Source: Neglectibacter timonensis (GTDB lineage: Bacteria; Bacillota; Clostridia; Oscillospirales; Acutalibacteraceae). From it: 64,000 nucleotides of DNA. Positions 35,199-37,299 of the stretch are shown here, piece after piece. A program made the translations under genes and the position numbers. The stretch is taken from positions 62,001-126,000 of the forward strand of contig NZ_LT160638.1 of the NCBI RefSeq assembly GCF_900048895.1, in the 5' to 3' direction. Under the pieces are notes generated by a model. That model worked only from the letters and a program-made list of their open reading frames with translations. It was not told where the DNA came from and did no database searches. Every line of letters begins with the position of its first letter. Positions within the stretch are counted from its first letter, which is position 1.

Positions 35199-35897
35199 TC
35201 AGGTTTTTGCATGAAAGTCCTTCAGGCGCTTCCGGTAGGCGGCGTTGATTTCGGAATCAAAGGCCAGCCGTGTATTCGGCACGCCCAGATCGGACAGAAG
35301 CCGCTTTGTGAGGCAGGGGTTCAAAATCAAAATTGGGCCCAGCAGATAGGTTCCGACAAAATTCTTATAGCGGATTCCCTCAGTCTTCAGCTTCTTGTTG
35401 AGCCCCGTACCCTTTGTCACTTGAAGAAAGGGATAATAACCTGGGGCGGTGTAGGCCATAGTGAACTGTGATTTAAAGCCCATGACTTCTTCTCCGTCGA
35501 ACCGGCCCAGGAAGGTGCTGTTGTGGCGGTGCATCATGTCCCGCTTGGCACGCAGGTCAAAAATACCCAAGCCGCTGATTTTACTGCCATCCTCATTTTC
35601 AATAGATTCGCCGAGAATTTCCAGAGCATTCCCAGTAAATAGAAAGCAGGCGCCCTTTTCGATGAGTTCGTAAATCCGGTCGCTCAGCGGACGGAGCTTT
35701 TCGATGACACGCTCCTGGGTGCGTTCCGTCATAGGCCCCAGATAGATCAGGCCCACGTCCTCGCTGGCAAAGGCCGGTTCCGCCTCGAAGGGGGTTTCCA
35801 CGAATTCCGCCTCGGGCAGGCATTTCCGCAGGTACCACATATTGCTCATATCCCCAAACAGGTTGCAAAATTCAGGGAATAGGATTTCAATCTTCAT
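35199..35897 (-). CDS. GatD-like glutamine amidotransferase-fold protein lacking catalytic Cys and His
   Basis: The 232-residue partner of the MurT gene upstream. In GatD proteins a class I amidotransferase fold supplies ammonia for amidation of lipid II glutamate, with a nucleophile in a CGGYQ-like elbow and a His in GTYLHGP. Here the elbow reads FLFTGNALEILG (Thr88 in place of Cys) and the second motif reads VGTYLLGPIL (Leu186 in place of His). Both codons are clear in the DNA (ACT and CTG), and the rest of the fold is conserved (YLGPMTER, MGFKSQF), so it is not a decayed frame. It presumably cannot hydrolyse glutamine by the normal route. Start ATG 35897 overlaps the murT end by 11 nt; a GTG at 35906 is an alternative. 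Confidence 0.85.
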   Translation of the reverse strand: MKIEILFPEFCNLFGDMSNMWYLRKCLPEAEFVETPFEAEPAFASEDVGLIYLGPMTERTQERVIEKLRPLSDRIYELIEKGACFLFTGNALEILGESIENEDGSKISGLGIFDLRAKRDMMHRHNSTFLGRFDGEEVMGFKSQFTMAYTAPGYYPFLQVTKGTGLNKKLKTEGIRYKNFVGTYLLGPILILNPCLTKRLLSDLGVPNTRLAFDSEINAAYRKRLKDFHAKT

Positions 35898-37299
35898 TTT
35901 GACCACCGTCTTCTTTCCCGTTTTCCCCGCCGCTGTCTTTCAGAACTGCCTTGACCTGTTCCTTGACCCGGTTGGCCAGTCCTATGGTGTAGACGTCGTA
36001 AAGGATGAACACAGAATCCACTTGGGCGGGATTGAGCAGCGAAGCCGCCTTTTCATTCTCCTCCACGTGTGCGATTTTGCTCTCCGGAATTCCGGCCATC
36101 AGCAGCCGCACGCAGACATCCCAATGACGGGCGCCCGCCGCGACGATCTGAGGAATGCCGGCGTCGTTTAAAAACTCAAAGTCAGTGTCGTAGTACCAGG
36201 AGGTATTCTCCACGGAGTGAGCCGCGTCAAAATAGTCGTCCAAAAACAGGATGACCGCCTTACGGCCGGGGTAGTTCCGGATGTTTTCAAAGGCACGGGA
36301 GCAGGCGATGGGATTTTGTCCTTTTGCCAGGTGAAGAACGACCTTTTTTCCTCCGGCCTCCTCTTCCTTATACCTGCTTTCGCTGATAGAGAGCTTTTCC
36401 ATGGATGCGGCGATCTGATCCGGGGATAGTCCGAATTCTGAAAGAAAGGCCACCGCGGAAAGGGAGTTATAGACATTGATGGTGCTGGAATTGGGCATGG
36501 GATAATCCCGTTCCTCGCCGCCGTATTTCACCGTCATTTTGCCCTGTTCCGGGTGGGTGGAGGTGACGCGGTAATCCGCCTCCGGAGATTGAAATTCACA
36601 GCAGGGGCAGTGGGCCTTGCCGATGTGGTGGTAGCGCACAAACTCCCATTCCAGCCTGGCGCCGCACTGGGGGCAGACGCGGATGTCCTGAACGATGTTC
36701 TGGCATTCCTCCCCGTCCTCCGGCATGCGGTCAATCCCGAAAAAGACACGGCGGTTCTGGGGTTTGAGGCTGGAGCAGAGCAGGTCGTCCGCATTGAGAA
36801 TCAGCCGGGTCCGGTCGGGAATGTAACGCTCCAGCACGTCGAGGATAAATTCCATGTGGGCGTTTCTTTTATAGGAATCTCGGAAGATGTTGGTGCACAG
36901 CAGCAGGTCGGGCTTGAGATAGGGAAGGATTTTCGGAGAACTGCGTTCATCCAGCTCGAAGATGGCCAAATCTTTTTTCGGCTTGCCGAAAAAAGTGGAA
37001 TTTGCAATGAGCGCGGAGGCAACTCCGGTATTTACATTGGTGCCGGAACGGTTGCAGACGAAGTCGTAGCCGCAATCCTCCAATACGTCCTCCACCATGT
37101 TGGCCACGGTAGTTTTGCCGTTGGTCCCGGTGATGCCGACAACCGTTTTCGGCCGGGGCATGCGCCCGAGAAAATCGGGACAGAGGATGATCGCCCAGGA
37201 TCCGGGCATAGACGTCCCCTTTCTGCCGATCAGCTTCAGGACCATAGCAGTCCCCTTGGCAAAAAACAGAGCGAAATAAAAACGAAGGCTTCTTCTCAT
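35887..37299 (-). CDS. MurT-like Mur ligase (lipid II isoglutaminyl synthase type)
   Basis: 470 residues. Mur-ligase central domain with P-loop GITGTNGKTTVANMVED, FELDERSSPKIL and LILNADDLLCSSL; an inserted Cys4 zinc ribbon (CPQCGARLEW, then CPCCEF), typical of MurT; and a C-terminal DUF1727-like domain with ILFLDDYFDAAHSVE. In Gram-positives MurT with GatD amidates D-Glu of the peptidoglycan stem. A hydrophobic N-terminal helix (RFYFALFFAKG) is usual. I start at ATG 37299 after AAAAGAG; the frame stays open upstream for 46 more codons without conservation. Its partner lacks the usual catalytic residues, so the real reaction of this pair is open. Confidence 0.9.
   Translation of the reverse strand: MRRSLRFYFALFFAKGTAMVLKLIGRKGTSMPGSWAIILCPDFLGRMPRPKTVVGITGTNGKTTVANMVEDVLEDCGYDFVCNRSGTNVNTGVASALIANSTFFGKPKKDLAIFELDERSSPKILPYLKPDLLLCTNIFRDSYKRNAHMEFILDVLERYIPDRTRLILNADDLLCSSLKPQNRRVFFGIDRMPEDGEECQNIVQDIRVCPQCGARLEWEFVRYHHIGKAHCPCCEFQSPEADYRVTSTHPEQGKMTVKYGGEERDYPMPNSSTINVYNSLSAVAFLSEFGLSPDQIAASMEKLSISESRYKEEEAGGKKVVLHLAKGQNPIACSRAFENIRNYPGRKAVILFLDDYFDAAHSVENTSWYYDTDFEFLNDAGIPQIVAAGARHWDVCVRLLMAGIPESKIAHVEENEKAASLLNPAQVDSVFILYDVYTIGLANRVKEQVKAVLKDSGGENGKEDGGQNED

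Follow-up and report, generated by a model that had tools for sequence, protein, structure and literature searches.

Neither S. aureus nor S. pneumoniae can do without the MurT/GatD enzyme, and amidation of D-Glu has effects on cross-linking and NOD-receptor sensing. The locus described here lies in a window of Neglectibacter timonensis DNA (the window being the whole stretch of 64,000 nucleotides that was analysed) and encodes such a pair, in which the glutaminase Cys and His of GatD are missing. It raises the question of what a MurT/GatD pair does without them.

Gene layout and catalytic residues

The gatD-like and murT-like frames were both open and overlapped by 11 nt (Table 1), as an earlier, sequence-only reading of this DNA had said when it called gatD intact and overlapping murT. 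Pfam searches matched GatD to PF07685 (E 1.3e-10) and MurT to PF08353 and PF08245. Pfam, NCBIfam and PDB sequence searches all grouped the pair with MurT and GatD, and the closest PDB relatives were, by their titles, the solved GatD and MurT chains of S. aureus, S. pneumoniae and S. pyogenes. The NCBIfam equivalog scores were 63.6 bits against a cut-off of 400 and 212 bits against 800; the GatD cut-off was passed by none of 150 genomes of the window organism's family, those with canonical pairs included. The AlphaFold models, made from alignments that included canonical sequences, had a pLDDT of 95.7 for GatD and 91.6 for MurT. The GatD model fitted solved GatD best (TM 0.83-0.85 to 6gs2_A and 5n9m), and the MurT model fitted 7q8e, 6h5e and 9sq9 best, over both domains (TM 0.50-0.68). 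A GATase_3 subunit and a MurT-type Mur ligase in one operon are what marks a MurT/GatD synthase, and operon order and folds were those of the isoglutaminyl synthase of S. aureus, S. pneumoniae and S. pyogenes. In ancestry and fold alike, this is a MurT/GatD variant.

Table 1. Features of the murT-gatD locus, with positions in the window. Clade 1 is the window-like group of relatives.
Feature	Position	Strand	Remark
gatD-like gene, 232 aa including Met, no glutaminase Cys/His	35199..35897	(-)	ATG at 35897
murT-like gene, 470 aa	35887..37299	(-)	11-nt overlap with gatD
GatD Leu186, codon CTG, at catalytic H189 position	35340..35342	(-)	His in 0/101 clade-1 rows, 80 of them chosen by a His-excluding pattern
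GatD Arg124, S. aureus R128, kept	35526..35528	(-)	R in 100/101 clade-1 rows
GatD Glu93, codon GAA, at Q98 position	35619..35621	(-)	E in 98/101 clade-1 rows
GatD Gly89, codon GGG, at S. aureus C94 (nucleophile)	35631..35633	(-)	G in 99/101 clade-1 rows
GatD Thr88, codon ACT, at I93 position; earlier candidate	35634..35636	(-)	T in 95/101 clade-1 rows
GatD Asp16, S. aureus D19 / S. pneumoniae Asp32, kept	35850..35852	(-)	D in 97/101 clade-1 rows
MurT Asn365, codon AAT, at S. aureus D349	36205..36207	(-)	N in 85/99 clade-1 rows, D in 2
MurT Cys4 zinc-ribbon segment, 4/4 Cys kept	36598..36675	(-)	alignments
MurT active-site loop RDSYKRNAH (S. aureus RDQMDRFGE)	36856..36882	(-)	alignments
MurT P-loop GTNGKTT, kept	37108..37128	(-)	alignments

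Pairwise and multiple alignment placed S. aureus IEDGMPGLTICGGYQFLG against window IEKGACFLFTGNALEILG with no gap from IEDG through QFLG. The elbow of the AlphaFold GatD model, where a strand ends and a helix starts, was at Gly89. Because the ungapped alignment puts Gly89 at C94 and the model puts the elbow at the same Gly, the substitution is read as Cys to Gly. The sequence-only reading was right that the nucleophile Cys is lost, but the residue it named in that place, Thr88, aligned with I93 and was rejected. Its other assignment, Leu186 in place of the conserved His, agreed with the alignment to S. aureus H189. It had also allowed for the Cys of GACFLF at the elbow and another His in the active site; the alignment put Gly89 and Leu186 at these positions. 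The GACFLF Cys was rejected as an alternative nucleophile because its column holds Cys in 5 of 104 clade-1 rows, and among 97 distinct clade-1 rows His reached at most 76% in any GatD column.

GatD Cys11 (35865-35867) and Cys26 (35820-35822) were both present in 78 of the 97 distinct clade-1 GatDs. The 99 canonical GatDs contained only one such Cys, in one row, and 22 distinct GatDs of clade 2, a further Cys-less clade, contained neither, so that the two were rejected as a new catalytic pair.

In S. aureus, the GatD variants C94A and H189A were devoid of glutaminase activity (PMC5871853), and C94S was inactive (PMC6113224). The third triad residue was assigned differently: the S. aureus study named MurT D349, with severely reduced activity in D349N (PMC6113224), and the S. 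pneumoniae study proposed instead the GatD Asp at S. aureus position 19, a change of MurT Asp D355 having cut activity there without abolishing it (PMC6085368). By alignment, the Cys and His that were catalytic in both studies are gone here. Unlike the characterised synthases, the window pair also has Asn for MurT D349, and other residues stand in place of the oxyanion glycines and Q98 and, in clade 1, of the E-N-H-x-G motif. These states support a loss of glutaminase chemistry that goes further than the earlier reading had stated, and judged by its aligned catalytic residues the pair falls outside the glutamine-hydrolysing isoglutaminyl synthases. GatD D19 and R128 are kept, R128 being the glutamine-capturing Arg of S. 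aureus (PMC5871853). The earlier suggestion that glutamine is bound rather than cleaved is thus possible in part: the retained Arg speaks for it, and the replacement of the other pocket residues speaks against it.

The MurT subunit retained the P-loop Lys and Mg-binding acidic residues by which a Mur ligase is recognised, and shares its P-loop, Mg residues and Zn ribbon with the known MurT. K59, E108 and the four Zn Cys were conserved in 98 of 99 clade-1 rows (the remaining row being a gap), and K315 and N316 in all 99. The GAN-motif Asn and the Asp-Glu pair, which are needed in S. pneumoniae (PMC6085368), were invariant in a 35-row alignment by our own mapping.

The canonical-type MurT loop (RDQxDR..E) was absent from the window MurT, and the stretch around D346/G347 was replaced too. 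According to the S. pneumoniae study, this loop contains a His in Mur ligases but none in canonical MurT (PMC6085368); in the Cys-less class a His is again present, at a position other than in Mur ligases. The S. pneumoniae loop adjoins the GatD interface and could form an ammonia channel, with a gate lined by acidic residues (PMC6085368). This "negative gate" is partly neutralised here, D355 being Asn, and loop residues D139/E143 are Lys/Met/Arg and His in the Cys-less class, although D139A and E143A had minor effects only in S. pneumoniae (PMC6085368).

Coupled changes among relatives

Residue states were compared in 101 clade-1 rows, made up of 21 from a family-genome search and the best 80 of 376 stretches from a contig scan, with at least three genomes appearing twice. 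Beside the Gly at C94 and Glu at Q98 given in Table 1, Asn stood at G95 in 100 of the 101 rows. The H189 position held I, L, Q, V or T. Because the contig-scan pattern allowed just L, I or Q at that position, the lack of His189 in the best 80 of the 376 stretches is by construction; the other states were free. The conservation survey proposed in the sequence-only reading gave Gly, with Thr before it, in about 100 relatives, and a variable residue at the Leu position. The E147, N148, H149, G151 motif, fixed in canonical rows, gave way to other residues in clade 1; clade 2 kept N148 but not the other three. Clade 2 was still acidic at MurT 349 (E 58%, D 35%; 29 of 31 rows as worked out from the percentages). 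The GatD pocket had the new common states T93, G94, N95 and E98 in both Cys-less clades, with R128 kept, and on the aligned rows the former glutamine pocket is thus reconserved and not decaying.

We also analyzed 145 distinct GatD and MurT pairs from the whole-genome searches, leaving out the contig-scan loci. All 90 pairs with the Cys kept His189, MurT D349 and a canonical-type loop, and none had N139 + H141; their MurT position 139 was Y, F, H, C or W, and position 141 was Glu (89) or Gln (1). The other 55 pairs were without the Cys, 47 of them also without His189. The N139 + H141 loop was present in 42 of these 47, and D349 was kept in 10. When the contig-scan loci (best 80 of 376) were added there were 221 pairs, of which 123 lacked Cys and His, 116 had N139 + H141 and 10 had D349. 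One counted pair (L026) probably adjoins a ligase that is not its MurT: at L026/L181 (G060) a clade-1 GatD was found but a MurT next to it was not, the adjoining frame being another Mur ligase by reading. On these alignments, the Cys-less state is not a local mutation; both subunits have changed in a coupled fashion.

The eight Cys-less pairs that retained His189 came from families f25 and f38, both other than that of the window organism. In f38 (L221, L231, L232, L245) the Cys alone was lost from GatD (VGLGFQ or IGLGFQ), with His189, Gln98 and Arg128 kept; the MurT loop of these four pairs was canonical-type, with D349 in three and a gap in one. In f25 (L192-L195) the GatD elbow read TGSSLS, with His kept and Arg128 lost, and MurT E108 read as Asp; the f25 genome G387 had a canonical pair (L196) and a second GatD match on contig C11. 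Three divergent pairs (L140, L178 and L256, with VGATGA, VGTTGM and IGTAGA) had no Cys, His or Arg128, and their MurT had a QQRNG(E/D) loop and Asn at 349. One pair, L128 (G131), looked intermediate: its GatD had Cys and His with CEGLE for CGGYQ, and its MurT had QDRYGQ.

A MurT tree of 84 rows was built by a quick search with SH-aLRT support only, and 30 of its 81 inner branches were unresolved. Clade 1 formed one branch (99). Clades 1 and 2, f25 and the VG-type forms grouped together (94, with the program's mark 95) among canonical rows, and the f38 Cys-only losses were a separate branch (100); clade 2 and the canonical rows were not strictly one-branch groups. On this tree, the Cys appears to have been lost at least two times, with one loss alone going with a rebuilt MurT.

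Distribution and neighbouring genes

GatD was found in 52 of 150 genomes of the window organism's family, the other 98 giving no match. When the search was repeated with the curated GatD model, 60 of the 150 matched; the eight extra genomes, all weak matches and seven of them in frames of at least 484 aa, were excluded as probably CobB/CobQ-type, and so were additional matches in four further genomes, which lay in frames longer than 500 aa. By the residue table, 40 of the 150 genomes were Cys-less and 12 canonical. Clade 1 was found in 21 genomes and clade 2 or its divergent allies in 21, with 2 genomes having both. Two Cys-less pairs were present in three family genomes, both of clade 1 in G038 (L017/L180) and one per clade in G107 (L019/L185) and G084 (L182/L183).

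The earlier reading had suggested that a second, canonical pair may do the normal job. This was rejected, as the window organism's own genome had a single MurT and its three other GATase_3 matches read by sequence as HisH, PdxT and a DJ-1/PfpI protein, so that a second GatD was not found. Canonical and Cys-less forms were seen together in none of the 52 GatD-bearing family genomes (P = 0.02 for no overlap, with the genomes non-independent through shared ancestry).

The 376 contig-scan stretches encode relatives, and the best 80 came from Acutalibacter, Neglectibacter, Scatolibacter, Anaeromassilibacillus and many other Clostridia. In a phylum sample, 133 of 398 genomes matched; loci from 100 of 132 genomes (own genome excluded) gave 99 GatD rows, 87 with Cys and 12 with Gly, figures which are not a frequency, the query being a Cys-less alignment. 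The gut-genera table of one review omits Acutalibacter, Neglectibacter, Scatolibacter and Anaeromassilibacillus, and a UDP-precursor exporter assigned to Acutalibacteraceae is cited in the same review (PMC11382707).

The genes rlmN, rsgA, rpe and those for a PP2C phosphatase and a PASTA-domain kinase (names by sequence reading) recurred in 30-38 of 80 loci (L037-L116, the best 80 of 376). The recurrent genes around these best 80 loci, judged from 16 representative proteins that were read, included none recognisable as serving donor biosynthesis or cell-wall synthesis. The neighbours were rejected as a functional clue, the recurrent ones being general cell genes.

Possible nitrogen donor and acceptor of the pair

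In the literature searched, which lay largely outside subscription journals, we found no description of a natural Cys-less GatD class and no peptidoglycan structure for the window organism's family. The sequence comparison itself gives loss of Cys, His and D349, retention of the ATP/Mg site and Zn ribbon, co-remodelled subunits and no other pair found in the genome. Probably, the pair does not hydrolyse glutamine and is still a ligase. Since a co-remodelled pair lacks the glutaminase residues, it would be unsafe to annotate the cell wall of these gut bacteria as isoglutamine-containing.

The fuller statement that we favour, held tentatively and with somewhat less than even confidence, is a glutamine-independent MurT/GatD-type ligase whose nitrogen is free ammonium. 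MurT would bind ATP and Mg2+ and activate a carboxylate of a peptidoglycan precursor as acyl phosphate, the acceptor being most likely the D-Glu alpha-carboxyl on the lipid-linked precursor. GatD, in complex with MurT, would hydrolyse no glutamine but would be required as a scaffold, completing the active site of MurT and the substrate channel, and free ammonium/ammonia would be the attacking nitrogen. To work in nature, such an enzyme has to capture NH4+ and deprotonate it at neutral pH; the former pocket (Asn90, Glu93) and the new MurT loop His148 may do this in place of the glutaminase, with Glu93 and His148 as the candidate residues.

The ammonia reading is chemically sound because S. aureus GatD_C94G, which used no glutamine, kept NH3-dependent amidation of lipid II at pH 8.5, not at 7.5; MurT or GatD alone was inactive in amidation (PMC3266927). 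The window GatD is like GatD_C94G in the Gly at the nucleophile position and unlike that point mutant, active at pH 8.5 only, in that the pair is also changed in the His, the MurT Asp, the pocket and the loop. Human CPS1 likewise keeps an inactive glutaminase-like domain, with Cys changed to Ser, and uses external ammonia (PMC4655335). The window pair resembles mammalian carbamoyl phosphate synthetase I in this retention; the ligase of the latter is unrelated, its change is Cys to Ser and its channel is different. Archaeal MurT-like proteins are MurT relatives from genomes without GatD (PMC11915815), unlike the window MurT, which has its GatD partner.

However, a plain switch to ammonia needs no rebuilt MurT loop, and the f38 Cys-only GatDs with a canonical-type loop show how a plain ammonia user might look. 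These may be the naturally occurring equivalent of S. aureus C94G and a control for a simple user of ammonia, and with canonical, Cys-only-lost and fully rebuilt pairs all in existence the family forms a natural experiment on a change of nitrogen donor in a glutamine amidotransferase. The partly neutralised gate (D355 to Asn, with D139/E143 changed) also stands against ammonium, although the corresponding S. pneumoniae changes had minor or partial effects, as do the continued conservation of GatD Asp19 and Arg128 and the acidic residue of clade 2 at MurT 349. Taken with how the f38 forms differ, the rebuilt loop suggests a change that goes beyond where the donor comes from. Free ammonium is the most likely donor and another amine is nearly as likely, the latter being held close behind because of the rebuilt loop, the f38 contrast and the position of loop and gate in S. 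pneumoniae.

The amine that the pair ligates might be an amino acid or polyamine in place of ammonia, joined to the alpha-carboxyl of D-Glu or to a different carboxylate of the precursor, a serious possibility in which we place limited confidence; GatD may then bind part of the substrate or just shape the channel. The loop states N139 and H141, which separate 42 of 47 pairs without Cys and His from all 90 Cys pairs, fit this reading, as do the reconserved pocket around R128, the loop His at its different position and the replaced D346/G347 stretch. The Selenomonas lipid intermediate:diamine transferase presumably acts on a lipid precursor, whose D-Glu alpha-carboxyl would receive an amine. The link to it is an idea only, drawn from likeness of modification and not from sequence, and polyamines on this carboxyl do exist in Negativicutes (PMC10628300). 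Against another amine stands the lack of a donor-biosynthesis gene among the recurrent neighbours of the best 80 of 376 loci. A ligand in the old pocket, moreover, probably cannot attack directly, because the GatD and ligase sites are far apart in the solved complexes (PMC6113224). A second, widespread MurT/GatD class of gut Clostridia that puts a non-ammonia amine onto the D-Glu alpha-carboxyl, with GatD as substrate-shaping partner, is conceivable though rather doubtful; if true, this would open D-Glu modifications to genetic study.

A different acceptor or a part in regulation, in which the pocket would sense an amino acid and gate MurT, or MurT would use another carboxylate, is quite unlikely for the pair. 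Arg128 together with the new Glu98 offers a possible binding site for a zwitterion, the acceptor-side motifs are changed, and at some of the best 80 of 376 loci the pair adjoins the PASTA-kinase/PP2C cluster; on the other side, the ATP/Mg residues tested in MurT are kept. The predicted MurE diamino-acid motif was DNPR or DNSR, with one DNCR, in 30 family genomes (L257-L286, 29 readable). DNPR and DNSR were each found in all three classes, and stem residue 3 was rejected as the cause. As the MurE motif does not track the MurT/GatD class, stem residue 3 gives no obvious explanation, and this too speaks against a changed acceptor.

The gatD gene had dN of about 0.30-0.34 against a saturated dS of 1.4-2.6 in four relatives (no dS was obtained for the nearest relative, a fifth), values which point to purifying selection. 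As they recur in about 100 relatives and come with such selection, the residue states are not attributed to chance. A decaying or non-functional locus, which would account for the lost catalytic residues and for the 98 of 150 family genomes without a GatD match, is very improbable, being largely refuted by the purifying selection, the changes made together in both subunits and a GatD frame that is open in 119 distinct clade-1 and clade-2 sequences.
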